Shown here in pieces: positions 27,281 to 42,897 of a DNA stretch of 64,000 bases. Source of the stretch: Methanocaldococcus vulcanius M7 (GTDB lineage: Archaea > AGJL01 > Methanococci > Methanococcales > Methanocaldococcaceae). The notes beneath the pieces are model-generated. The model had not been told where the DNA came from, did no database searches, and was given only the letters and a program-made list of their open reading frames with translations. The stretch spans positions 1,178,001 to 1,242,000 of the forward strand of contig NC_013407.1 in NCBI RefSeq assembly GCF_000024625.1. Reading direction: 5' to 3'. Each line of letters starts with the position of its first letter. Positions within the stretch are counted from its first letter, which is position 1. The position numbers and the translations under genes were made by a program.

Positions 27281-27746
27281 ATATTTTCACTTGATTATTT
27301 TTTCTCCATCATTTTCATTTTTAATTACATTATTATCACATCAATTTTATGATTTATGGTTTTGTTGGTATCTTATTAAAAGATTATTTTTATTTTTAAC
27401 CTTTTTATATTAATTTACATATTCTCATGTATGATTAATCATATCCTCAGCCCAAAAGATCAACAATTTAAACACTGAACAAATAAATTAAATTAAATCA
27501 AGAGATAAAAAAAGGAATTATAGAAATCACGTTTGAGGAAGAAAGAGAAATCTTAGAGCTACCTTCAAAAAATATGAAAATACAAAACTAACTAACTTTT
27601 TAAAAAATATCAAAAGTAAATTCTAGAGATCTATTCTAATATATACCTACAAAAAGAATCGTAAATAAGATAAAGGAGAATGATAAGATAATAACTATAA
27701 AAGAAATTTTTTCTTGTAGATTTATAAAGTATTGTAGGTAGGTAAA
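27281..27746. other. Left edge of defence island, non-coding
   Basis: About 465 bp between ClC and the first defence gene. No gene with a proper start. A short open stretch around 27508-27590 reads GIIEITFEEEREILELPSKN before a stop and may be a decayed gene piece. Possible TATA sequences for the operon are AATATATAC at about 27637 and TTTATAAAG at 27721. TTGTAG occurs twice just upstream of the ATG. No CRISPR repeat was found. Confidence 0.4.
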
Positions 27747-29009
27747 ATGAGGAAGATGTTGTCATTCTTAGGAACGGGAAACTATAAACCATGCATATAT
27801 GAGTTTAATGGGACTCTAAGTGAGAAGACAAGATTCGCTCAAGAGGCAATAATTCAAAAATTGTGTAAAGATTGGGGGGAGGAGGATAAGATAATAATAT
27901 TCTTAACAGAGGGGGCTAAAATTGGAAATTGGTATGGTGAGAATTATAAAAATGAGAAAGAATTAACAGAAGGATTAAAAGAAAGGTTAAAAAAGCTAAA
28001 TTTAAAAGCTGAGATAATCCCAGTAGATATTCCTGATGGTAACACTGAAGAAGAAATTTGGAAATTGTTTAAGATAGTTTATGACACATTAGAAGAAGGA
28101 GATGAGGTTTATTTTGACATTACACACTCATTTAGATATTTACCAATGCTTACAACTATTTTACTGAGTTATGCCAAGGTATTAAAGAACATTAGAGTTA
28201 AAAGAATCCTCTATGGAAATATATATGGAGAAACTCCAAAGATTATGGATATCACAGCCTTTGATACTTTAATGTCTTGGACTAATGCTATTGATAAGTT
28301 TTTAAGTGGAGGTTATGCAGAGGATATTGTTAAATTGGCAGAAAGAGAATATTATCCAAGATTAAAAGAAAGTAAAGGTAAGGATGAATTTGCAAGGAAT
28401 TTAAGATTTGTAAGTAACCAACTTAACACTTTTATGGAATATCTTGCAACAGTTAGAGGACCAATGATTGATGAGTATGGATATAATAAGCTCAGAAATG
28501 CAATTGATGCAGTTCTAAAATCTATCAATGAGGGTAGTTCTATAGAACCAATGATTCCATTGTTAGAGAGGGTTAAAGAAAAATTAAGTGATTTTGAAGA
28601 TAACGATATTTATAATGGCTTAAAGGCAGTTAAATGGTGTATTGACCACAACTTAATACAGCAGGGATATACATTACTTCAAGAGAGCATTGTTACAATA
28701 ATCTGTAAAAAATTTGAGTTTGATGAATTAGATAGGGAATATAGGATGTTAATTAGTTCTGCTCTGAATATAAAGGGGCAAGATATTCCTGAAGATAATT
28801 GGAATGAGTTTGCAAAGAAAAATAAGGAGTTGATAAAAGAGACAATCTCTAAATGTGATGATGAATTGTCTAAAATATTTGTTGAAATTACACAATATAG
28901 AAATAATTTAAATCACGCTGGCTATAATAGAGATAAGAAAAAACCTAAGGATTTTGAAAACAAATTAAAGGAATTGTATGAGAGAACTCTAAAAGTGCTG
29001 TGGGGATAG
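27747..29009 (+). CDS. csx1: CRISPR ancillary CARF-HEPN RNase (Csx1/TM1812 type)
   Basis: 420-residue type III CRISPR accessory protein. The N-terminal CARF domain begins MLSFLGTGNYKPCIYEF and continues with IIIFLTEGAK, EVYFDITHSFRYLPML. The C-terminal HEPN domain carries the nuclease motif RNNLNH (Arg385-X4-His390). Such proteins are activated by cyclic oligoadenylate made by Cas10 and then cleave RNA non-specifically. It is the first gene of the operon, two bases ahead of cas10. Start ATG at 27747 behind GGTAGGTAAA; a second ATG three codons later is possible. Confidence 0.9.
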   Translation: MRKMLSFLGTGNYKPCIYEFNGTLSEKTRFAQEAIIQKLCKDWGEEDKIIIFLTEGAKIGNWYGENYKNEKELTEGLKERLKKLNLKAEIIPVDIPDGNTEEEIWKLFKIVYDTLEEGDEVYFDITHSFRYLPMLTTILLSYAKVLKNIRVKRILYGNIYGETPKIMDITAFDTLMSWTNAIDKFLSGGYAEDIVKLAEREYYPRLKESKGKDEFARNLRFVSNQLNTFMEYLATVRGPMIDEYGYNKLRNAIDAVLKSINEGSSIEPMIPLLERVKEKLSDFEDNDIYNGLKAVKWCIDHNLIQQGYTLLQESIVTIICKKFEFDELDREYRMLISSALNIKGQDIPEDNWNEFAKKNKELIKETISKCDDELSKIFVEITQYRNNLNHAGYNRDKKKPKDFENKLKELYERTLKVLWG

Positions 29010-29011
29010 GG

Positions 29012-31318
29012 ATGGATGAATTAAAACCAATAATTTTAGGAGTTATTTATAAAAACATTGGTGAAAATCTAAAGGAATGTTTAAAAAATTATGGTTATGA
29101 TGATGAGCTAATAGATTTAGTAGAAAAGCTTGTTGGAATTTCTGAAGAATGTATATTATCAAATGAAGAAAGTAAAAATAATGATAATTACGCTTTAAAA
29201 TCAGTATTTTGCTCAATTAAATTAGGTGATAAAGAAACAAAACCAAAATATTATCCTATTAAAGAGTTAGTTGTAAATCCAAAAACTATTGAAGAAATTC
29301 CAATTCCAAAAGACAAAGTCAAAGTAACTAAAGAAGATTATGAAAAGTTCATTTCTAAGTTTAAAAATGAGTTAAAAAATGCTGACACTGTTAATAAAAT
29401 ACTGACAATTGCTGAAAGGTATTTAACCTTTCTTCCAAAATATGATGACATCTCATTATACGACCACATAAAAATGAGTTCTGCAATAGCTACGGTATTG
29501 TTTAGATACTATGGGGGGAATATAAAAAATAAAGATATTGACTCAAATGAGCATGTATTTTTACTAATTGGTGGGGATTTATCAGGAATTCAGGACTTTA
29601 TTTATACAATATCAATGAGTGGTGCTTTAAAATCATTAAGGGCAAGGTCTTCATTCTTGGAATTGATGATAACAGATATTTGCTTAGAGATTGTTGATAG
29701 ATTAGGGCTATCAAGAGCTAATATTATCTACAATGGTGGTGGTAGCTTTACAATACTTGCACAAAATACTGAAGATGCTAAAAAGATATTAGAAAAAATT
29801 AGATTGGAATTAACCCAGTATCTATATGAAAAATTTAATGGAAAATTATATTTGGCTATGGATTGGATAGAAATTAGTGGTAAAGAGTTAAAAGAGTTTA
29901 AAAAGGGTAAAAAACCATTAATTACTATGTTAAAAAATAGAATTAATGAGAGAAAGTCAAAAAGATTTGGAGAGATTATTGAAAAAGATATTTTCAAGTT
30001 TTATGACACTACTTCAAAGAGGGATGAATGTGAGATTTGTAAAAAGTTATTAACTGAGAGTGAAATGAAATACATTAAAGAAAAAGATATTTATGCCTGT
30101 GAATTTTGTAAAATGTTATTTTACTTTGGAACCTCTTTACCAAAAATTGATGGATTTATTAGGACAAAGGAGGACATCTCCTTATATTTAAACCAGAAAG
30201 CACACTTAGAAATGCCATTTTCACACATATATGCTGTTAATGTTGAAGATTTAAAAGAAGAGCTAAAACATACTAATAAAAAAGTTTTTGAAGGAAGTTT
30301 ATTACTTTTAAAGAATTCCTTTGATTTTTCAAACATTCCAGAACCTTTTGATGTAATTCCATATATCGTTGCAGACTATGCAAAAAAATCAGAGAAAAAG
30401 AGCAAAAATGAAGAAGAATATAACAACGATAATAATAAAGAACAAATTGCTGATTTTGATGAATTAGCTGAAAATTCAAAAGGAGCTAAGAGGATTGGAG
30501 TTTTAAGAGCAGATGTTGATAATCTTGGACTGATATTTGGGTTTGGTTTAAAAAATCCATCACTTCCAAGAATAGCAACACTGTCAAGATTCTTAGATTA
30601 CTTCTTTAAGGGATATTTAAACACAATAATTAAGCATGACATTAAAGAAGTTCCAAAAATCCCAAAAGACAATAAAGAGCCAAATATTGTAGTTGTTTAT
30701 GCTGGAGGGGACGATTTATTCATTGTTGGAGCTTGGGACGAAGTGTTTAACTTAGCATTTAAGATAAATGAAATGTTTAGAAAATACGTTGGAGAAAATT
30801 CCAATATAACAATCTCTGCTGGTTTAGGATACTTTGATGAGAAATTTCCAATCTCAAGAATGGCTAACACAACTTATGATAGATTAGACACAGCAAAGGA
30901 TGAAGGAAAGAATAGGATTTATGTTATTGAAAGATTAAAGCCAAAAAAAGATGGATTTAAAAAGAGTCATAAATTATCTTATGAATGGAATGAATTTAAA
31001 AAATTATGGGATAAGTATGTAGAAGATGAAAAAATAAAACTTTATAAGAGATTAACTGAAAAATCAGAAAATAAACTCTCAAAAGGAGTAATTTGGAAGA
31101 TTTTGACGGCTCATAATATGTACGTGAATAATCCAAACGGTATTAAGTGGAATTATTACTTAACTTATCACCTTGCAAGGCATGAGGTGGATGAAATGTT
31201 TAAGGATTTAATAGCTATTGACGTTCCTAAGGCAGTGAATAAAGAGCCACAAGAGATTTACTATATTGATGGTATTTTGAAGATAGTGTTATTCTCACTA
31301 AGGGAGGGGGTGAAGTGA
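29012..31318 (+). CDS. csm1: Cas10/Csm1, type III-A large subunit, GGDD cyclase, no HD dyad
   Basis: 768-residue Cas10 of the Csm type. Seen: SLYDHIKMSSAIA (typical linker), first palm (GGDLSGIQDFIY, INYNGGG-like IIYNGGG), zinc ribbon with CX2C at ~340 and ~364, and the second palm with GGDD at 565-568 in YAGGDDLFIVG, then SAGLGYFDEKFPISRMA. The GGDD site makes cyclic oligoadenylate. The N-terminus is only ~75 residues up to the linker; where an HD nuclease has LLHDIGK this protein reads VIYKNIGE, so DNase activity is likely lost. The start at 29012 lies two bases after the csx1 stop. Confidence 0.94.
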   Translation: MDELKPIILGVIYKNIGENLKECLKNYGYDDELIDLVEKLVGISEECILSNEESKNNDNYALKSVFCSIKLGDKETKPKYYPIKELVVNPKTIEEIPIPKDKVKVTKEDYEKFISKFKNELKNADTVNKILTIAERYLTFLPKYDDISLYDHIKMSSAIATVLFRYYGGNIKNKDIDSNEHVFLLIGGDLSGIQDFIYTISMSGALKSLRARSSFLELMITDICLEIVDRLGLSRANIIYNGGGSFTILAQNTEDAKKILEKIRLELTQYLYEKFNGKLYLAMDWIEISGKELKEFKKGKKPLITMLKNRINERKSKRFGEIIEKDIFKFYDTTSKRDECEICKKLLTESEMKYIKEKDIYACEFCKMLFYFGTSLPKIDGFIRTKEDISLYLNQKAHLEMPFSHIYAVNVEDLKEELKHTNKKVFEGSLLLLKNSFDFSNIPEPFDVIPYIVADYAKKSEKKSKNEEEYNNDNNKEQIADFDELAENSKGAKRIGVLRADVDNLGLIFGFGLKNPSLPRIATLSRFLDYFFKGYLNTIIKHDIKEVPKIPKDNKEPNIVVVYAGGDDLFIVGAWDEVFNLAFKINEMFRKYVGENSNITISAGLGYFDEKFPISRMANTTYDRLDTAKDEGKNRIYVIERLKPKKDGFKKSHKLSYEWNEFKKLWDKYVEDEKIKLYKRLTEKSENKLSKGVIWKILTAHNMYVNNPNGIKWNYYLTYHLARHEVDEMFKDLIAIDVPKAVNKEPQEIYYIDGILKIVLFSLREGVK

Positions 31319-31897
31319 ATGAATACTAGGAGTCAGAGAGTACCAAATGATATGTTAATAACAGAAATGGAAAAAATTGTAGCATTACTTAATGAAGATA
31401 CTATAAAAGTGAACGAAATTAAAAAATTGGTAATAAATATATCAAAAAATCTTGAAAAAATTAAAAGTAAAATAGAAAAAGAGAAAAAGAAAAGTAAAAT
31501 TTTAGAAAAATTAAAACCAAAATATGATGAAATAATCAAAAAATCTCAAAACTTCAAGGACTGGGATGAAAAAAGAGAATTGCTAAGATATGCTATAATC
31601 ATGGCAATATACTGTAGAATAAACGATTTAAAAACTAATCAAATTAGAAAAGTTCTCGATTTAGCAAATAGGACTCATTTAAAATTGAGAAGAAATAAAA
31701 ATGAAAATATTGAAAGTGATTTAGCAAAAATGTGTTATATTTTAGCATATACTGCAGGAAGGAATCAGGCAGTAGAACCATTAGCTAATGTATTAGACAT
31801 AATGCTTCAAAATGCTGATAACAAAAGTTTTAATAAACTTTATGATTTCATTCAAGCAGTTGTTGCATACCATAAATTCTTTGGAGGGGGAGAATAA
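31319..31897 (+). CDS. csm2: Csm2, type III-A small subunit
   Basis: 192-residue helical protein in the Csm2 position. The C-terminal half (KPKYDEIIKKSQNFKDWDEKRELL is the recognisable area, then AYTAGRNQAVEPLANVLD, LYDFIQAVVAYHKFFGG) fits Csm2, which lines the inner side of the complex along the crRNA/target duplex. Residues ~20-75 form a Lys/Glu-rich coiled segment. The ATG follows the cas10 stop directly (TGAATG). Confidence 0.85.
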   Translation: MNTRSQRVPNDMLITEMEKIVALLNEDTIKVNEIKKLVINISKNLEKIKSKIEKEKKKSKILEKLKPKYDEIIKKSQNFKDWDEKRELLRYAIIMAIYCRINDLKTNQIRKVLDLANRTHLKLRRNKNENIESDLAKMCYILAYTAGRNQAVEPLANVLDIMLQNADNKSFNKLYDFIQAVVAYHKFFGGGE

Positions 31898-32778
31898 TGG
31901 AGGATAGAAATAGAAAATTCTATGGAAAAATAATTTTTAAAGGAAAAATAAAAGTTAACACTGGATTACATATTGGCTCTCAAAGAGATGTTTCAGAAAT
32001 TGGAGGGATTGATAATCCAGTTGTTAAGGATCCAATAACCCAACTACCATACATCCCAGGCTCCTCTTTAAAAGGTAAGTTAAGGTCTCTCTTAGAAATT
32101 GCTGAAAATACAAAAAAACCAAAAGAAGAACAAGGTATTGGAGATGAAAAATTCTTTAATAGAAAAATAATAAGAGGTTCAAAAGAGCCAATTTGGATTC
32201 ATGTTTGTGAAAATTATAAAGATGCAAAAGAGTGTCCAGTTTGTAGATTGTTTGGTTCTGGAGGAAATTCAAACTTCCCAGCAAGAGTTGTTGTTAGAGA
32301 TGCTCATCTAACAGACTATTGGAAAGAAAAATGGGAAACTGGTGAAGAACTTACAGAAATCAAGCATGAGAACACTTTAGATAGAATTACTTCAGCTGCA
32401 AGTCCAAGAAAAATTGAAAGAATCCCACCAGGAGTTGAATTTAATTTTGAGATTATTTACACCATAGAAGATGAAAATGATTGGAAAGAAGACGTTAAAA
32501 ACTTATTAAGCACTATGAAAATGCTTGAGGATAGTTATTTAGGTGGATGTGGTTCAAGAGGTTATGGAAAAGTTGAATTCATATTTGAAGAATGTAAATT
32601 TAGGAGTTTAAATTACTACTTCGGAAAAGATTATGAAAAACCAATTGAAATAAAGGAAAACGTTGAAAATACAATTAATGAGTTTTATAATATATTTAAT
32701 AAAGAATTAGAGGAAATTATTAAATCAATATCCCAAAATAACGGTGGAGACAATGGATACAAAAATAATAAAACTTAA
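31897..32778 (+). CDS. csm3: Csm3, Cas7-family target RNA-cleaving backbone subunit
   Basis: 293-residue RAMP protein. LHIGSQ, GGIDNPVVKDP with the expected catalytic Asp39, YIPGSSLKGKLRSLLE, CPVCRLFGSGG and the Gly-rich end of the RRM (GGCGSRGYGKVEF) are all Csm3 hallmarks. Csm3 copies form the backbone and cut bound target RNA at 6-nt spacing. The start overlaps the csm2 stop by one base (TAATG). The C-terminal ~50 residues (from ENVENTINEF) are an extra helical tail. Confidence 0.95.
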   Translation: MEDRNRKFYGKIIFKGKIKVNTGLHIGSQRDVSEIGGIDNPVVKDPITQLPYIPGSSLKGKLRSLLEIAENTKKPKEEQGIGDEKFFNRKIIRGSKEPIWIHVCENYKDAKECPVCRLFGSGGNSNFPARVVVRDAHLTDYWKEKWETGEELTEIKHENTLDRITSAASPRKIERIPPGVEFNFEIIYTIEDENDWKEDVKNLLSTMKMLEDSYLGGCGSRGYGKVEFIFEECKFRSLNYYFGKDYEKPIEIKENVENTINEFYNIFNKELEEIIKSISQNNGGDNGYKNNKT

Positions 32779-33715
32779 TTTTAAAACACCAATTCATGTG
32801 GGGGATTTTAACAATCTTTCTGGACAAGAAATTCCTATACATTCTGATACAATTTTTGGGGCTATTTGTAATGCTTTGGATAGGTTAGGAGTAGATGTTA
32901 AGGATTTTGTTAAAAATCATGGAGAAGATTTTGTAATATCATCAGGATTCCCATACGTAAAAGATAAGTTATACTTTCCAAAACCTTTGAATGTTGATAA
33001 GTTGATTAGCAAAAAATTCAATGAAAATGCCAATGAAGAGACATATAAAAAATTAAAAAAATTCAAAAAAATGAAATTTTTTGATAAAAAAATGTTTGAG
33101 GCAGTTATTAATAGAGATGAAGAAATGATTGATAGTATTTTAGATGAAATAGAGGATGAAGAAGATTATGGTTATAAGATATTTGATTTACCAAAGGTTG
33201 TTTTAGATAGGGTTACTGTAGATTCCCAAATATACTACTTAACAATGGCAAGATTCGAAGAAGATTGTGGTATCTATTTCTTATATAGGGGCAATAAAAA
33301 AGTGTTTAAAAATTATATAGAGCCAGCTATAAGATTACTTGAAGATGAGGGCATTGGTGGAAAAAGAAGTTGGGGTTTGGGGTTGTTTAATGCAAAAATA
33401 GAAGATTTTAAGTTAAATGTTCCAAAAAATGGAAATTATTATTTAACATTATCCCTTATGTATGTAGATAATCCAAAAATCTTAGAGAGATGGAATTTTG
33501 TATATAGGAAAGGTTGGATTTTTACAAGGTATGGAAAACCTCATAGAAAACCATTAATAACAATGATAAGTGAGGGTTCAATTGTTAAAGAAAATTATAG
33601 TGGAGAAATTATTGATTTAGATGGATTCTGGGAAATATCTAAGGAAGTAGGGCATAAAGTGTTTGTAAATGGTAGAGGGTTTTTAATTCCGATAAAATAT
33701 GGGTGGAGGAAATGA
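32753..33715 (+). CDS. csm4: Csm4, Cas5-like 5'-handle-binding subunit
   Basis: 320-residue RAMP of the Csm4 type: FKTPIHVGD, SDTIFGAICNAL, FPKPLNV, LPKVVLDRVTVDS and GGKRSWGLGLF (Gly-rich loop) are visible. Csm4 holds the crRNA 5' handle and contacts Cas10. The start at 32753 follows GGTGGAGACA and overlaps csm3 by 26 bp. A lysine-rich stretch (KKLKKFKKMKFFDKK) lies in the middle. Confidence 0.92.
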   Translation: MDTKIIKLNFKTPIHVGDFNNLSGQEIPIHSDTIFGAICNALDRLGVDVKDFVKNHGEDFVISSGFPYVKDKLYFPKPLNVDKLISKKFNENANEETYKKLKKFKKMKFFDKKMFEAVINRDEEMIDSILDEIEDEEDYGYKIFDLPKVVLDRVTVDSQIYYLTMARFEEDCGIYFLYRGNKKVFKNYIEPAIRLLEDEGIGGKRSWGLGLFNAKIEDFKLNVPKNGNYYLTLSLMYVDNPKILERWNFVYRKGWIFTRYGKPHRKPLITMISEGSIVKENYSGEIIDLDGFWEISKEVGHKVFVNGRGFLIPIKYGWRK

Positions 33716-34809
33716 AGCTTGAGATTCTAACACCTACTCATATTGGTAGTGGAGAGAAACTTTTACCAACGGATTATTATCCAATTAAAGATATGCATGG
33801 GAATATAACAAAAATTATTGTTATTGACATTGATAAATTGTTTAATACCTTAATTTCAATGGGTGTAAATGTTAATGAGGTTGTAGAAATTTTGAGAGAA
33901 AGTAAAAGTTACCCATTAACTAAAATTTTTGAAAAATATCATTTAAAACCAAAAGATTTTGAGAAATATCCTTTGGACATTGTTGGAGGTTATGGAAAAT
34001 ATAGTATGCAAATAAATACTTTTATAAAAACGTGTGGAATGCCTTACATTCCTGGAAGTTCAATAAAAGGAGCTATAAGGACTGCATTGATGTATTATAT
34101 TGTTAAGGATAATAAAAAACTTCTAAGTGACATAATAAATGAACTTAATAAAATTGTAACTCAAAAAAATGCTAAAAATTTTGTTAAAAGGGCTGATGAT
34201 AAGCTTGATAAAAAGATATTTGGTAATGACCCAAAATTTGACGTTTTAAAATCTTTAATCATTAGGGATAGTGAAAAAATAAGCTTAAAAAAATTAAAAG
34301 TTTATAAGGTTGAAATTTTGGGCAATGACGCTCCAATCCCTACATATATTGAAGGACTTGAAAACATTAAAATAAATTTTGAAATGCAAATTAACGATGC
34401 TATATTAAAAAATGTCAATTTTAATGGAATGTTAAAAAATATTGACTTTGAGTTGATTAAAAATGCAATTAGGGAGTTTTCTAAAGCAGTTATTAATGCA
34501 GAGATTAACGAGATATATAAATATGGTAAATATAAAGAGAATATGCTTAAATTTTACAAGAATTTGGAAGATAAAATTGAAGATGGAGAGTTGTTTATAA
34601 GGATTGGATGGGGCAGTGGTTGGTATTCTACAACCATAGGAGTTTTATTAAAAACTCATCCAAAGTTTGAAGAATTGAGAAAGAAATTGGGCTTAGGTAA
34701 AAATCCTAAAACAAAAAAGGTTGTTAATGATTATCCAAAAACAAGGAGGATAGTTAATAACAAACCACTTGGATGGGTTAAATTAGAGGGAGAGTTATGG
34801 TTAATATAA
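33712..34809 (+). CDS. csm5: Csm5, Cas7-like cap subunit
   Basis: 365-residue RAMP protein of the Csm5 type: LEILTPTHIGSGEKLLPTDYY at the N-terminus, MPYIPGSSIKGAIRTALMY, and the Gly-rich RIGWGSGWYSTTIG at the C-terminal side. It caps the complex at the crRNA 3' end and is linked to crRNA maturation in other systems. ATGA overlap with csm4; its own 3' end overlaps the helicase start by 13 bp. Confidence 0.92.
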   Translation: MKLEILTPTHIGSGEKLLPTDYYPIKDMHGNITKIIVIDIDKLFNTLISMGVNVNEVVEILRESKSYPLTKIFEKYHLKPKDFEKYPLDIVGGYGKYSMQINTFIKTCGMPYIPGSSIKGAIRTALMYYIVKDNKKLLSDIINELNKIVTQKNAKNFVKRADDKLDKKIFGNDPKFDVLKSLIIRDSEKISLKKLKVYKVEILGNDAPIPTYIEGLENIKINFEMQINDAILKNVNFNGMLKNIDFELIKNAIREFSKAVINAEINEIYKYGKYKENMLKFYKNLEDKIEDGELFIRIGWGSGWYSTTIGVLLKTHPKFEELRKKLGLGKNPKTKKVVNDYPKTRRIVNNKPLGWVKLEGELWLI

Positions 34810-37800
34810 TTGATAATTCAAACATCAAATTGGCAGATTTTATTAAAAGAAAACTTAAAAAATCCAAAGAAGCAAAGTTTGCTTTGGGTTATTTCTTTTT
34901 AAGTGGTTGGGATATTGTAAAAAATGATTTACCTGATGATTTAAAAGATGAGTTTTTAAAAATAGTTATTGGTGATGAAACTACAGAAGATACTGCAAAA
35001 GAAATTTCAAAAGGATATAAGTTGAGGGTTAAAACAAAAATTATAGAAGAGCTATCAGAAGCTAAGAATGAAGAAAAGATAAATGAACTTTATGAATTAA
35101 TAAAAAATAATAAGATAGATATAAAAATTTACGATAAGGGGAAATTACACGCTAAACTTTATCTATTCTTAGAAAATCCAGATGAGCTAAACAATGATAT
35201 AGGTTCTTCTCCAGGGGTCGCGGTTGTTGGTTCATCCAACTTTACAAAAAGTGGATTAATTAATAATAAAGAGTTGAATGTTGTTTTTACGGATAGAGAA
35301 GCAATAATCAACTTAAATGAATGGTTTAATAAACTTTGGGAAGAGAGTAGTGAATTTAGAGAAGAATTACTAAAAATTATTGAAATTTCAATGCCAAAGG
35401 GTAAGAAAGAAGGATTAAAGTTAGGAAAATACATTACTCCAAAAGAACTGTTTAAATTTTTAGTTTGGAAATGGTTTGATGGTAGGATTGAACCAATAGA
35501 GAAAAGGGATATTCTTGCTGATTTTCAATTAATTGGGGTTATAAATGCTATAAACATAATAAATAGTCATAATGGTGTTATAATCGCTGATTCTGTTGGT
35601 TTAGGAAAGAGTTTCATTGGAGCTACTTTAATTGAAGAGTATTTAATTGGAAAAATTCCAGAATGGGACCCAAATAAGTATGGAATTAACAAAGATAGAA
35701 AGGCATTATTGATATTGCCACCCCCATTAATCCCACAATGGGAGGATTTATTATTAAGAAGTCCATTTTTCTTTGGACATAGTGAGTATTATGTTAGGAA
35801 AAAGGAGAAAAATGAATTAGATACTGATAAGTATAGAGTTTATGAGATTTACAAAAAGGATATGACAAAAGTTGGGGAAATTGGATTTTTATCCTTAGGA
35901 ATTTTTAGTAATTTAAGTAAAGAGGTTTTAGAGCATTTAAGTTATGAGTATGATTTGATTTTGATTGATGAGGCACATAAGTTTAGGAATTCACAAACAA
36001 ATAGGTGGAGAAATGCCCACGATTTAAGATTTAAGGAAAATGATAAAATATTCCAGAATAAGTTTATTCTACTGACTGCAACGCCTTTAAACAATACAAT
36101 ATGGGATATTTATTATTTAATAAAGATGTTTTCAGATGATTTGTTCTCTACATTTAAAGCAAGAGGGGTTAATATTACTGAATTATTTAGGGAATACCGA
36201 GATTTAAAGAAAAAATTCAAAGAAAATCAAAATTATGACACTGAGTCAAAATTAAAATTAAAAGCACAGGAGATTAAGGAGAAGGTTTTAAATGAGGTTA
36301 TGATTTTAAGGACAAGGAAGTATATTTTAGAGAATTTTGGTAAAGATGGAAAGATTAAAATTGGTAGTAGGGAGTTAGTGTTTAAAGAACCGCAACCAGA
36401 AAAAGTGTTGTATGATGATATTAAGGATTATAAAGAGTATTGGGAGTTTTTAAAGAATATTGCAAATGATTTAGAGAATTTAGAGTTTGCATACACAAAA
36501 CTTTATACAAGTGGTTATGTGGTTTTAGGAAATTCTTGCTCTTCATTATTTGAGGATAAACCAGAAGATGCTGAAAAAGAAAAAATTGCTGTTCCAATAC
36601 ACTTAATATTGAGGTTTTTAATTGCTAAGAGGTTGGAAAGTAGTATTTACGCATTTGAAAAAACATTAAGGAAGATTTACAATAAAAATAAAACTTTATG
36701 TGAAATTCTTGGAGGATTGGATTCTGAAATTGAGAAATTATCAGCTGGAAATCTAAAATTGGATGAATTCTTTGAAAAATTAAAAGAAATTACAGATAGG
36801 CTCTTAGAAGTTGCAGGCAAGGAGGATATTGTTGAGGAGGGAGAAATTGGAGAGGAAGAATCTACTTATAACCCAAAGGTAAGGATGCTTATAAACTTCC
36901 TTACTTATGGTGAAGAGAAAAAAGAGTTATCATTCAATAGTGAGGAAGAGGTATTTAACTACTTAAAAAAACATCCCGAAATGGTTTATAAATTAAAAGA
37001 GGGTATTTTTAGAATATTAAATGAAATGAAGAAAGATAATGAGATAATTGAGAAGATAATTGGAAAATTGGATAATGTTAAGGTAAAGAATGAGAATGGT
37101 AATCCAATTACAGTTGGGGTTATTATAGAGGATAATGTAGAGTATCCAATATACGTTTATAAAGACCCAAAATTAAAGAAACTCAGGTCTTTAATGTATA
37201 ATGAATTAGTTGGTAAAAAATACGTAATTTTTACACAATATAAAGATACTGCAAAGTATCTTTACCACTCTCTAATTAAATATGTTGAGAGGCAAAAATC
37301 CACATTAACTTATTTATTTGATACAAAACGAAACAAATTAAAAATCGGATTAGTTACTGGAGAATTGGGTATTGAGGAGAAAGAGAGATTAATTAAAAGG
37401 TTTGCTCCAAGTGTTAATAATGGTTATGAGGTTGTTGAAAAAGAGGGAGAGATTGAGATTTTAATATCAACTGATTCATTAAGTGAGGGAGTTAATTTAC
37501 AAGAGGGAGATGGAGTTATTAACTATGACTTGCCATGGAATCCTATGGTTATAGTGCAAAGGGTTGGAAGAGTTAGTAGAATAGGTAATGAAAAGGATGT
37601 ATTTGTTAAAAACTTTGTTCCAGTGCAAGAGATTGAGGTTTCTGTTGGATTATTGGCAAAATTGCAGGAAAAGATTAAGGATATTACATTAGTTGTTGGG
37701 AAAGAGTTTTATATTTTAAGTTCTGCTGATGAAGAGATTTCTATAGAGACATTTGGGGAGAAGATTAAAAACCTTGCTGAATTGAAATTAACTGAATTAG

Positions 37801-38519
37801 AGGAGGTTTCTGCTACTGAAGAGGCTAAGGAAATTATGGGGGGTAAGATTCCTGAAGAAGTTAAGGCAGAGTTTGAGTTATTGGACTTTGTTCAAAATAG
37901 ATTAGGGTTGAAAAAAGAGGATTTTGAGGATGTTAAGGGGTTGTTATCTTCAAGAGTTCCAGGTTATACTTTGATTGAAGGAGATGATATTTTTGGAGTT
38001 TTTGAAGTTTATAGAGGAGATATGAGGATTGGAAAGAAGGTTGTGGTGTATAAGGAGGATAAGTTAGAGGAAACAACTTGTAGAGAGTTTATTAAATTAT
38101 GGAATGCTGAGGGATATAAAGAAGATGTTGATTTTGAAAAAATTTCCAATAATTTATTGTTATTGAGAAATAAGTTTAAGGATGAGATTCTTCCAAAGCA
38201 TAAGGGAAATATAAAAGGAAAAGGTTTTATAAAGAATCTATATAATCACCTATACAAATTTAAAAAACAAAGAACATTAACTGATGATATTGATAGGAAA
38301 AAATTAGACAGTGTTTTATCTTTCCTATCATGGTGTGAATTAACCACGCATGAAGTAAAAGAGTTTAAAGATTATCTCAAATCTAAAGGAATTCTTGATG
38401 ATAAAGGAAATTTAAAAGATAACAATCCAAAGATTCTTATTGAGTTAATTTATGGTTATTTCAATATAGGGGAGCTTAATAAGAAATTAGAAGGAAAAAT
38501 GATTGCATGGTGGTGTTAA
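34797..38519 (+). CDS. PLD nuclease-SNF2 helicase fusion, defence protein
   Basis: 1240-residue protein. Residues ~1-175 form a phospholipase-D-type nuclease half with the HxK motif LHAKLYLF (His118, Lys120) and SSNFTKSGL (Asn148). Residues ~235-960 form an SNF2/HepA-type helicase: DFQLIGV (Q-motif area), VGLGKS (Lys271), DEAH (391-394), LLTATPLNN, ISTDSLSEGVNLQ and QRVGRVSRIG. The last ~280 residues are unassigned. The SNF2 and PLD parts recall DrmD and DrmC of DISARM, here in one chain. Only one HxK is seen, so a dimer would be needed for a full PLD site. Ribosome binding signal GGGAGAGTT lies inside csm5. Confidence 0.88.
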   Translation: MVNIIDNSNIKLADFIKRKLKKSKEAKFALGYFFLSGWDIVKNDLPDDLKDEFLKIVIGDETTEDTAKEISKGYKLRVKTKIIEELSEAKNEEKINELYELIKNNKIDIKIYDKGKLHAKLYLFLENPDELNNDIGSSPGVAVVGSSNFTKSGLINNKELNVVFTDREAIINLNEWFNKLWEESSEFREELLKIIEISMPKGKKEGLKLGKYITPKELFKFLVWKWFDGRIEPIEKRDILADFQLIGVINAINIINSHNGVIIADSVGLGKSFIGATLIEEYLIGKIPEWDPNKYGINKDRKALLILPPPLIPQWEDLLLRSPFFFGHSEYYVRKKEKNELDTDKYRVYEIYKKDMTKVGEIGFLSLGIFSNLSKEVLEHLSYEYDLILIDEAHKFRNSQTNRWRNAHDLRFKENDKIFQNKFILLTATPLNNTIWDIYYLIKMFSDDLFSTFKARGVNITELFREYRDLKKKFKENQNYDTESKLKLKAQEIKEKVLNEVMILRTRKYILENFGKDGKIKIGSRELVFKEPQPEKVLYDDIKDYKEYWEFLKNIANDLENLEFAYTKLYTSGYVVLGNSCSSLFEDKPEDAEKEKIAVPIHLILRFLIAKRLESSIYAFEKTLRKIYNKNKTLCEILGGLDSEIEKLSAGNLKLDEFFEKLKEITDRLLEVAGKEDIVEEGEIGEEESTYNPKVRMLINFLTYGEEKKELSFNSEEEVFNYLKKHPEMVYKLKEGIFRILNEMKKDNEIIEKIIGKLDNVKVKNENGNPITVGVIIEDNVEYPIYVYKDPKLKKLRSLMYNELVGKKYVIFTQYKDTAKYLYHSLIKYVERQKSTLTYLFDTKRNKLKIGLVTGELGIEEKERLIKRFAPSVNNGYEVVEKEGEIEILISTDSLSEGVNLQEGDGVINYDLPWNPMVIVQRVGRVSRIGNEKDVFVKNFVPVQEIEVSVGLLAKLQEKIKDITLVVGKEFYILSSADEEISIETFGEKIKNLAELKLTELEEVSATEEAKEIMGGKIPEEVKAEFELLDFVQNRLGLKKEDFEDVKGLLSSRVPGYTLIEGDDIFGVFEVYRGDMRIGKKVVVYKEDKLEETTCREFIKLWNAEGYKEDVDFEKISNNLLLLRNKFKDEILPKHKGNIKGKGFIKNLYNHLYKFKKQRTLTDDIDRKKLDSVLSFLSWCELTTHEVKEFKDYLKSKGILDDKGNLKDNNPKILIELIYGYFNIGELNKKLEGKMIAWWC

Positions 38520-41500
38520 TGGTTAAGGTTGAAAAATTATTGAGTTATGATGGATTAATTGAATATTTAAGAAAAAATAATTATAAGGAAATTGAGGAGG
38601 GAAGATTTGTTGTTTATGAGGATGAGGATTTGGGTGTTGAGGAAATATTGGTTGTTAAAAAAGGTAGTAACTACAAAGAAGACTTAAAAAACCTAAAAAA
38701 GGAACTTTCAAAATCTGAAGAAGTTTTAGAGGGAGAAAAAGTAGAGTATGGAATTTTGTTTGTAGATAATTATGTTCTATTCTTAAAAAAAGAAATGGTT
38801 GGACTACCAGCAAAAGTTGTAGTTCTCAAAAAATCATTGGATAAGATTAGTCCAGCATTTAAGAAGAAGTTGAAAAAGTTGGCTAAAGATTTTGGAAATC
38901 TTGAGTATTGGGAGGTATTGTTTGATAGGAGTGATATTGTTGAAGAATTCTATAAACTATATGTTAAGGCAAGAGAGTTATTAATTAAAAATATTAAAGG
39001 CATTGATGATGATGAGAAGAAAATAAAGTTTGCAAATAATTTATTGATGAAGTTGTTTATAATTTGGTATTTGCAAGAGAAAGGATTTTTAGATGGAGAT
39101 AAAAGGTATTTAATAAACAAATTTAAGGAATATAAAAATTTAGGGTTTAATAGCTATTATGAATTCCTTAAAGAGTTGTTTAGTATAATGATGGGGGATA
39201 AGGGAGGAAATTTAACATTTAAAGATAATAAGTTTGGAGAGATTGTAATTACTGGACCTGCACCATTTATTAATGGAGAGATAATAGAAAATGTTGAAAT
39301 TCCAGATGAAGTGTTTTATATTGATGGAAAAACTGAAGAATTGAAAAAGATAGAACCAAAAAATGTTAGCATAGTTCCAATTTTGAACTTATTTGAGAGT
39401 AGAGATTGGGTTGTTGAAGGAGGAGATGTTGAAGGAGATATAACTGATATGATGTTGGGAGATATTTTTGAAAAGCAGATGGTAGAGGAGGAGAGAAAAG
39501 ATAGCGGTTCTTACTATACTCCAGCAAAGATTACACGATATATTTCACAAAATGCCATTGAATCTTATGTTTTAGATAGGTTAAATGAAGAGTTAAAGAC
39601 AAATTATAAAAATTTAGATGATTTCTTTAAAAATGAGAAGGATTTAAGGGCTTATAAGTTGTTGTATGATATTTTGAATGATATTAGGATATTAGACCCT
39701 GCATGTGGTAGTGGGCATTTTTTAGAGAGGGCAGTTGAGGTTTTAGTTGATATTTATGAAAGATTGAGGGATAAAGTTAAAGAACTTGGTTTTGATGGCA
39801 ATTTGTTTATAATAAAAGTGGCTGATGACAATGGAAACATTAGGAATGAGAATTTATTATCTATTGATGATGAAGAGTTTAAGATGAGAATTAAATTCCA
39901 TGTTATTGTTTCAAAGAATATTTATGGAGTAGATATTAATGAGAGTGCTGTTGGGATAAGTAAGGCAAGGTTGTTTTTATCAATTGCAAAACATTTTGAT
40001 AAAGAGAAGGGAATTTTTGTTAGATTTCCAAATGTTCATTTCAACATAAGGGATGGAAATAGTTTAATCGGTTATGCAAGGATGAAAAAACCAGAAAGAA
40101 CATTAGATGCATGGCTTAAATTTGGTAGTGAGAAGATTGAAGAGTTAAAGGAAGAGTTTAAGGTTGTTTCTGAATTGGGAGATTATTTAAAAGAGGTTTC
40201 TAAGGTTTTAAATCAGAAGGGAGATATTTTAAAGGACATTGAAGAGTTGAATAAGATAATAAGTAAAAAAGAATTAAGTTGGTTAGATTTTGAGAAAGTT
40301 TTAAAGATAAAAGAAAAATTAGTTGAGATATTATTAGTTTCATTAAATTCAAAGTATGCAATTCCATTGAATAAATTGTTAAGGGATATTAATAAGAAAT
40401 TTAATGAAAAATTGGATGAGATGTTTGTAAAAGAGTTTGGAATTGAGGAATATGTTAGTCCAAAAATTTTAAGGGAGGGAAAATTAAAAAGATTCCATTG
40501 GTTTTTTGAATTTTCAGAGGTTTTTGTTGATAATGGTGGGTTTGATGTAATTATTGGAAATCCTCCTTATGTAAGGCAAGAGAGGATAAATGACATTGTT
40601 AAAGGTGTTGATTATAAGGAAATATTATCAAAATTGTATAAACCTTATGATAAAATGTTTGATTTCTCTATGTTCTTTATATTGAGAAGTTTGGAGTTGT
40701 TGAAAGATAAGGGCTATCATTCCTTTATTATAACCAATAAATGGTTAAGGGCAAGGTATGGAAAGAAGATAAGGAAGTTTTTAAAAGAAAATGTTACAAT
40801 TAAGAAGGTTATTGATTTTAATGCTGTTAAAGTATTTGTTGGTGTAACAGTAGATACTATGATTTATATTGTTAAGAAAGAGAAACCAGATAAGGATAAT
40901 AGGATATTTTATAATAATCCAAAGAGTTTGGAGAATATTGAAGAAGGAGGTTATTATGTTAAACAGTTTAATTTAGAGGATGATGTTTGGAACTTTGTTG
41001 ATGAAAGAACTTTGGAAATAAAAGAATGGATTGAAAAAGTTGGAGTGCCTTTGAAGGAATTAGATATTAAAATTTTCTATGGTATAAAAACTGGATTTAA
41101 TGAGGCGTTTATAATTGATGATGAAACAAGGAAAAAGTTGATTGAAGAGGATGCAAAAAGTGAAGAGTTGATTAAACCAATATTGAGGGGTAGGGATATA
41201 GGAAGGTATTATGTGGAATGGGATAAATTATGGATGATTATAATACCTGCTGGATTTACTAAAAGATTATTTAAAAAAGATTTACCATTAAAGGATGCTG
41301 AAGAATTGTTTAAAAAAGAATATCCTTCAATTTATAAACACTTTGAACCATTTAAATACAAAAAAGGAAAAGGAAAAGGGTTGGTAGATAGGGATGACCA
41401 AGGAGATTATTGGTGGGAGTTAAGACCATGTGATTATTATCAAGAATTTGAAAAACCAAAAATTATGTGGCAAGAAATAGTTAGAGAACCTTCATTTTAT

Positions 41501-42112
41501 TTAGACCAATCTAAAATATATGGAGAAGCAACAACATTTATAATGACTTCAAAGAAGATGAATTTAAAATTTTTATTAACAATTCTCAATTCAAAATTAT
41601 CTTGGACAGCAATTAGGTTTTATGGGACTAATTTAGGAGATAATACAGCAAGATATAAAAAAGCATATATTGAAAAAATCCCAATCCGACTTCCAAATAA
41701 CACCAAACCTTATGAAATCTTAGCTGATTATCTATTATTCTTAAATGCAAAAGAGGATTGGAGAGAGAAATATAAAGAACTCATAAACTTCTTTGATAAG
41801 GAAATTGCTGACTCTTTAGTTTATGAACTCTACTTCAAAGAAAAATTATACAATGAAGATAAAGAATATCTATTAAATGCAATCTCAAAGCACTTAAAAT
41901 CAATAAATTATGATAGATGGGCTGAATTGTATTGGAAAAAGCAATTAAATGATGAATTAACAGAAAAAGAGGAAGAAGAATTAAAACAGTTGGAAGAAGA
42001 GAATTTAAGAATAATTATAGATGTCTATGAAGCAATAAAAGATGATGAAGAAATAAATAAACTAATTAAGAAAATAAAATCTCATAAATGGGTTAGGATT
42101 ATTGAAGGATAA
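38519..42112 (+). CDS. Adenine-specific DNA methyltransferase (type IIG/PglX/DrmMI-like)
   Basis: 1197-residue N6-adenine methyltransferase. Motif I DPACGSG (393-399), an X-motif-like SGSYYTPAKITRYI just before it, and catalytic NPPY (681-684) in VIIGNPPYVRQERI. The C-terminal third has a TaqI-like target recognition region (KPILRGRDIGRYYVEW ~885, then GDNTARYKKAYIEKIPI). The ~330-residue N-terminal region shows no clear PD-(D/E)XK nuclease motif, unlike true type IIG enzymes. It starts with TAATG overlap to the PLD-helicase gene, behind GGTGGTGTTA. It likely marks host DNA for that helicase-nuclease. Confidence 0.9.
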   Translation: MVKVEKLLSYDGLIEYLRKNNYKEIEEGRFVVYEDEDLGVEEILVVKKGSNYKEDLKNLKKELSKSEEVLEGEKVEYGILFVDNYVLFLKKEMVGLPAKVVVLKKSLDKISPAFKKKLKKLAKDFGNLEYWEVLFDRSDIVEEFYKLYVKARELLIKNIKGIDDDEKKIKFANNLLMKLFIIWYLQEKGFLDGDKRYLINKFKEYKNLGFNSYYEFLKELFSIMMGDKGGNLTFKDNKFGEIVITGPAPFINGEIIENVEIPDEVFYIDGKTEELKKIEPKNVSIVPILNLFESRDWVVEGGDVEGDITDMMLGDIFEKQMVEEERKDSGSYYTPAKITRYISQNAIESYVLDRLNEELKTNYKNLDDFFKNEKDLRAYKLLYDILNDIRILDPACGSGHFLERAVEVLVDIYERLRDKVKELGFDGNLFIIKVADDNGNIRNENLLSIDDEEFKMRIKFHVIVSKNIYGVDINESAVGISKARLFLSIAKHFDKEKGIFVRFPNVHFNIRDGNSLIGYARMKKPERTLDAWLKFGSEKIEELKEEFKVVSELGDYLKEVSKVLNQKGDILKDIEELNKIISKKELSWLDFEKVLKIKEKLVEILLVSLNSKYAIPLNKLLRDINKKFNEKLDEMFVKEFGIEEYVSPKILREGKLKRFHWFFEFSEVFVDNGGFDVIIGNPPYVRQERINDIVKGVDYKEILSKLYKPYDKMFDFSMFFILRSLELLKDKGYHSFIITNKWLRARYGKKIRKFLKENVTIKKVIDFNAVKVFVGVTVDTMIYIVKKEKPDKDNRIFYNNPKSLENIEEGGYYVKQFNLEDDVWNFVDERTLEIKEWIEKVGVPLKELDIKIFYGIKTGFNEAFIIDDETRKKLIEEDAKSEELIKPILRGRDIGRYYVEWDKLWMIIIPAGFTKRLFKKDLPLKDAEELFKKEYPSIYKHFEPFKYKKGKGKGLVDRDDQGDYWWELRPCDYYQEFEKPKIMWQEIVREPSFYLDQSKIYGEATTFIMTSKKMNLKFLLTILNSKLSWTAIRFYGTNLGDNTARYKKAYIEKIPIRLPNNTKPYEILADYLLFLNAKEDWREKYKELINFFDKEIADSLVYELYFKEKLYNEDKEYLLNAISKHLKSINYDRWAELYWKKQLNDELTEKEEEELKQLEEENLRIIIDVYEAIKDDEEINKLIKKIKSHKWVRIIEG

Positions 42113-42550
42113 TTCAAAAAAATATTACAAATAATCTTTATAGAGTATTTGAATATAAATAGTGGACACTATCAGTAATTGAAAAATGTTTGTTAAGAGA
42201 AGAAAAGGATATTAAAAATTGATATTGATAGAGAAGATATGACTACTCACAAATAGTTGATACTATGTAAAGATGATTGTGCCAAGATATATGGAGAATT
42301 ATTTCTTAATTGGAGCTTAACAATAAAGTGGTAATATTAGAACCACTTTTAAAATTTATTAATATATATGTCCAATATATTCTAAAAAGAAATCAAGAAG
42401 AAGTTATACCAAACGAATAACTCATATACTTATCACTCTAAGTAGTTAACATTAGTTTGTCGCTAAGAAACTCTGATTTAGGGTGGTGACATCCTTAATC
42501 ACTTAACCTACCGCATCGAAATTATGGAATGTCACTAACTACCAAATAAG
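42113..42550. other. Non-coding right flank of defence island
   Basis: About 440 bp after the methyltransferase stop. Stops in all frames; no gene with a start. The part from about 42400 on is probably decayed IS200/IS605-type sequence, because the tnpB end follows. A 7-bp inverted pair, GTGACAT at about 42486 and ATGTCAC at about 42529, lies near its end. Confidence 0.4.
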
Positions 42551-42730
42551 TGTAGCAACTGCGGAATTATAAAGAAGCCGAATAGGAAATGTAGAGGGGT
42601 TTATATTTGTTCGAAGTGTGGGATAGTGATAAATGCTGAATGTTAAATATATGGTGCAGGGAATATTTTGTTAAGGTAGTTCCGAATCTCCTTAATGGAG
42701 ATATGGATAGTGGGCTTGGCAACCAGAGGA
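42551..42730 (+). pseudogene. TnpB (IS200/IS605 family) C-terminal remnant
   Basis: 42551-42646 reads CSNCGIIKKPNRKCRGVYIC then SKCGIVINAEC and a stop: the four-cysteine zinc ribbon and INA(D/E) motif that end TnpB proteins. After frame changes GAGNILLR (42653-42676) and VVPNLLNGDMDSG (about 42675-42714) continue the family's tail. The upstream RuvC-like parts are missing or unreadable. So this is the degraded 3' end of a tnpB gene, left by an insertion sequence next to the island. Confidence 0.8.
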
Positions 42731-42733
42731 GGT

Positions 42734-42783
42734 GAGCTTTAAAGCTCTGCTCTCCTAAAGAAATTCCGCCCTTTAGGGCAGAG
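42734..42783 (+). repeat. IS200/IS605-type right-end hairpins
   Basis: Directly behind the tnpB remnant: a perfect 14-bp palindrome (42734-42747, GAGCTTTAAAGCTC) and a long hairpin with arms CTCTGC / GCAGAG (42745-42750, 42778-42783) and CCTAAAG / CTTTAGG (42754-42760, 42771-42777) around a 10-base loop. This position and structure fit the right end of the element, where TnpB's omega RNA is also encoded. The former element boundary is probably within ~20 bp downstream. Confidence 0.65.
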
Positions 42784-42897
42784 AGAATGTCATATCATTA
42801 ACCTTATATGGTAATGTAGTTTTATAATATAATTATCAAACAAACGTATCAACAGTATTTAATAATTTAATAGTTTAATATAAATTTTGGGGATACG

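Follow-up and report, generated by a model that had tools for sequence, protein, structure and literature searches.

Type ISP restriction-modification enzymes, such as LlaGI and LlaBIII, are single polypeptides in which a nuclease, a helicase, an N6-methyltransferase and a target recognition domain are brought together in one system. Class 1 DISARM joins an SNF2 helicase and an adenine methyltransferase with DrmA, DrmB and a separate PLD protein, DrmC. Another example of ATP-driven restriction is NgoAVII/CglI, which uses a PLD nuclease, an SF2 helicase-ATPase and a methyltransferase; in that system nuclease and helicase are encoded as two proteins, a B3 domain confers specificity and the methyltransferase is of the C5 type (PMC4267653). 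The BREX-related (BR) type 2 systems carry an HKD(PLD)-Swi2/Snf2 helicase effector and an N6-methyltransferase together with a DUF499 ATPase and DUF3780 (PMC12839542). Type III-A CRISPR (Csm) systems follow the order cas10-csm2-csm3-csm4-csm5 and are accompanied by a Csx1/Csm6-type effector. An HD domain is found in 65% of type III-A loci and about a third lack a recognizable one, so that an HD-less type III-A Cas10 is not rare (PMC11229360). The locus described here holds a Csm half and a PLD-SNF2 plus methyltransferase half side by side, and we read it, with a probability of about 0.82, as two independent defence modules sharing one tight gene run, which forms an insert between two housekeeping genes.

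The window, meaning the whole 64-kb stretch of DNA that was analysed, corresponds to 1178001-1242000 on the main contig of a three-contig, 1,761,737-base genome from a thermophilic, methane-producing archaeon. Within it, csx1, cas10, csm2-csm5, a PLD-SNF2 helicase gene and an adenine methyltransferase gene form a single rightward run at 27747-42112, with 8/8 open reading frames on the + strand. Using ATG starts (cas10 at 29012, csm4 at 32753, csm5 at 33712, PLD-SNF2 at 34797 and the methyltransferase at 38519), the spacings read from the sequence are +2 bases for csx1/cas10, 0 for cas10/csm2, -1 for csm2/csm3, -26 for csm3/csm4, -4 for csm4/csm5, -13 for csm5/PLD-SNF2 and -1 for PLD-SNF2/methyltransferase. 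The order, strand, coordinates and spacings claimed in the earlier note were thereby reproduced, and its module identities were borne out by profile searches. It had also described the csm5/helicase join as being as tight as those within csm, and this holds: the two genes overlap by 13 bases, a Shine-Dalgarno-like GGGAGAG lies within the end of csm5 just 5' of the helicase ATG, and both proteins are complete at the join, Csm5 being alignable with its homologues up to its own C-terminus and the helicase from residue 3. As both ends are natural, the choice of start codons does not explain the tight join, which is real. Co-transcription of the run is plausible.

The type III-A half starts with csx1 (27747..29009, +), a CARF-HEPN ribonuclease gene matching PADLOC CARF2--CARF_HEPN with 401 bits and encoding the HEPN motif RNNLNH (R-x4-H). 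It is followed by cas10/csm1 (29012..31318, +; Cas10/Csm1 profile, 577 bits), csm2 (31319..31897, +; PF03750, TIGR01870), csm3 (31897..32778, +; TIGR02582, 228 bits), whose translation carries the conserved catalytic Asp region GGIDNPVV, csm4 (32753..33715, +; TIGR01903, 285 bits) and csm5 (33712..34809, +; TIGR01899, 228 bits), and all five of the Csm proteins, Cas10/Csm1 to Csm5, score above the NCBIfam cut-off. The cyclase motif GGDD of Cas10 is intact (VYAGGDDLFIVG in the translation). No HD motif was found in the Cas10 encoded at 29012-31318, which matches TIGR02578 only from about profile position 82; the LLHD[IV]GK start, present in 28/28 other Cas10s examined, is missing here (1/29), and the closest relative, about 50% identical and encoded in genome G024, has the HD domain. 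The csx1 gene directly adjoins this truncated end of Cas10, at a 5' junction that may be the scar of a recombination event.

In its full cas10-csm5 order, its CARF-HEPN gene and the closest solved Cas10 sequences, which belong to the Csm1 group (4uw2, 6iqw and 6mur), this half agrees with type III-A CRISPR; it differs in its HD-less Cas10, in the position of csx1 immediately 5' of cas10, and in the absence of cas6, cas1 and an array beside the operon. No CRISPR array was found within the 64-kb window, and a Methanocaldococcus repeat sequence had no match in the source genome. A k-mer scan of the genome located arrays near cas1 at the contig end and near the genome's other type III-A locus (position 1123546), whose Cas10 contains the HD domain. 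Judged from its protein families, the complex (Csm1-5 with Csx1 and the HD-less Cas10) most likely binds target RNA, guided by crRNAs that arrays elsewhere in the genome would supply in trans; Csm3 would cleave the target, and the Cas10 cyclase would produce cyclic oligoadenylate and thereby activate the Csx1 RNase.

The second half begins with the PLD nuclease-SNF2 helicase fusion (34797..38519, +; 1240 aa), in which PLDc_2, SNF2 and Helicase_C domains were recognised (PF13091, PF00176 and PF00271) and which matches PDLC01075, the PADLOC profile C3a139 HKD+Snf2, with 1324.6 bits. Conservation over seven homologues indicates that the PLD active-site residues (HAK...GSSN) and the helicase motifs are intact, with identities of 46-62% for the SNF2 motor lobes and 51-59% for the PLD domain. 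The adjoining gene (38519..42112, +; PF07669, PF12950) encodes an Eco57I-type N6-adenine methyltransferase with DPACGSG and NPPY motifs and a TaqI_C specificity domain. Its core is 38-51% identical across homologues and residues 800-1065, TaqI_C included, only 10-26%; a hypervariable region next to a conserved core is what exchange of a target recognition domain would produce. The PLD-helicase, by contrast, is uniform. The C-terminal tail (41710-42112, about residues 1065-1201) shares 60-74% identity with the tails of methyltransferases found elsewhere in the order, one of them on a small G008 contig, which suggests domain swapping around the specificity domain. A search of the unassigned parts of both proteins for a CARF or SAVED sensor found none; a CARF_m1 match inside the PLD domain (E=0.012) was judged spurious. 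With these motifs intact, the two genes look like an ATP-dependent restriction-modification system, an activity predicted from sequence. The TaqI_C domain would direct the methyltransferase to the specific DNA site that it reads and methylates, while PLD-SNF2 would translocate on unmethylated DNA and cut it with the PLD nuclease.

The run occupies a site that is empty in congeners: the genes for a ClC channel and a gamma carbonic anhydrase, which flank the run here, are adjacent with a short gap in eight congeners, so that the entire stretch between them (27281..42897) is a species-specific insert. In the sister species (G004, contig C17, locus L255; 96% identical over the carbonic anhydrase region) only about 50 bases separate the contig start from the carbonic anhydrase gene. 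A probable transposon remnant (42540..42806, +) marks the right edge of the insert; it consists of a decayed zinc ribbon resembling the TnpB C-terminus (PF07282, E=0.0017, below cut-off) and, 3' of it, a full-length but weak match to HgcC RNA (RF00062, 23.3 bits, below the gathering score). This remnant suggests mobile-element activity at the site. The HgcC-like RNA may occupy the 3' terminus of an IS605-type element, like omega RNA. GC content is 25-31% in the csx1/csm genes, 28-29% in the pair and 33-37% in nearby housekeeping genes, and it does not separate the csm half from the pair. The cassette may have arrived in one event or in several.

The PLD-SNF2 protein was searched against 394 archaeal genomes. 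Close relatives, near full length and 43-55% identical over the matched segments, were found in six other genomes (G014, G031, G035, G037, G372 and G434), the G035 copy being interrupted by stops. The same methyltransferase gene follows it on that strand in 6/6, overlapping or abutting in four, which brings the linkage to 7/7 close pairs with the present one included. In G014 (L047, 12572-13636) a 355-aa protein encoded just 5' of PLD-SNF2 resembles an HsdR-type N-terminal domain by eye. No Csm or Cas10 gene was seen in the fetched flanks of the six other pairs (0/6), flanks that are contig-limited for some of the draft genomes, and no Cas10 palm domain was detected anywhere in G014, G037, G372 or G434, each about 99% complete. 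Conversely, neither PLD-SNF2 nor the methyltransferase was found at 28 other type III-A loci (21 Cas10/Csm loci from within the order plus seven remoter relatives of this csm lineage). The nearest csm relatives are in G024 and G305 and the nearest pair relatives in G014, G031, G372 and G434, that is, in different genomes. The wider PDLC01075 family, comprising 15 further genomes of the G037 phylum, G022 and haloarchaeal loci, has no Csm neighbours in the available stretches; the haloarchaeal PLD-SNF2 relatives, at about 30% identity, have a methyltransferase homologue and no Csm nearby among the matches listed. A contig scan with PLD-SNF2 gave predominantly distant SNF2 proteins among the matches listed, and a plasmid search returned only haloarchaeal relatives at <30% identity.

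It had been proposed that both halves belong to a single composite system, expressed and inherited together. What stands of this claim is their joint presence within one insert in this genome; the composite system does not follow, as the halves live apart elsewhere, and the neighbour survey that had been suggested as a check gave no recurrent neighbourhood in either direction. Because the pair is found without Csm elsewhere, and III-A loci without the pair, it is by these comparisons a self-standing two-gene system, and functional coupling of the halves is not indicated. The two-module reading draws on a mostly archaeal survey with few close relatives of the pair (n=6), and two observations run counter to it: csm5 and the helicase overlap no less tightly than neighbours within csm do, which suggests selection for co-expression, and the one csm/PLD-SNF2 join found is also where Cas10 has lost its HD domain. 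Both would suit a system in which the HD-less III-A complex senses foreign RNA, PLD-SNF2, whose nuclease and helicase residues are intact, replaces the DNA destruction of the lost HD domain, and the methyltransferase protects self DNA. Such a composite is nevertheless unlikely, given the four genomes that have the pair and no Cas10, the csm relatives that occur without it, the lack of any cOA-sensing domain found in the pair and the share of type III-A Cas10s that do without a recognizable HD anyway. A rare and recent functional merger, in which Cas10 lost its HD DNase after cassette formation since a translationally coupled PLD-SNF2 had taken over DNA clearance, appears very unlikely; an HD-less Cas10 at the sole PLD-joined csm locus is a single case and may be coincidence.

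Other readings concern the second half by itself. Residues 313-1110 of the methyltransferase are covered by matches to type IIG models, and the protein could thus be imagined as a complete restriction-modification enzyme of the type IIG kind, with PLD-SNF2 as a separate nuclease; this is quite unlikely, as no nuclease domain was recognised in its N-terminus and the linkage to PLD-SNF2 is strict. A reduced class 1 DISARM, retaining DrmD and DrmMI after loss of DrmA and DrmB, is highly improbable. The profile matches on which it could be built are significant (DrmD 110 bits, DrmMI 134 bits), but the matches to C3a139 (1324 bits) and REase_MTase_IIG (350 bits) are far stronger, the NCBIfam DrmD model is reached with 134 of 610 bits, well below cut-off, and no open reading frame beside the pair is fit to be DrmA or DrmB, the flanks being housekeeping genes. 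The likeness to DISARM parts that the earlier note had pointed out is therefore weak, DrmD and DrmMI being the best profiles for neither protein.

Two independent modules, set head to tail at one insertion locus, would make this insert a miniature defence island of self-standing systems, and the case cautions that operon tightness should not be read as functional coupling. Were the halves coupled after all, RNA-triggered CRISPR sensing would be linked to a DNA restriction motor powered by ATP. The suggestion of an undescribed system is doubtful, since PADLOC already contains a profile for this PLD-SNF2. This protein scores 1324 bits against PDLC01075 and its same-order homologues 390-551 bits, so that the profile was very probably built from it or from a close twin, and the proximity of the accession to those of Cas models suggests cataloguing as a neighbour of type III loci. 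No mechanism is conveyed by the profile name, and a literature text search for C3a names returned nothing relevant.

Among the described systems, class 1 DISARM shares the SNF2 helicase and adenine methyltransferase, but the locus is not DISARM, as DrmA and DrmB are absent. The effector and N6-methyltransferase of BR type 2 are present here as well; DUF499 ATPase and DUF3780 are absent from the locus, where the eight genes are otherwise assigned and no extra gene lies from csm5 to the insert edge. With NgoAVII/CglI the pair has in common a PLD nuclease, a helicase-ATPase, a methyltransferase and the predicted ATP-driven restriction, whereas the defining features of that system, like those of BR type 2, are missing. 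The set of activities recalls type ISP, here divided between two polypeptides and with a PLD nuclease. C3a139 HKD+Snf2 matches over its full length with no evident difference, and for the two-gene PLD-SNF2 plus methyltransferase system an archaeal distribution is now given.
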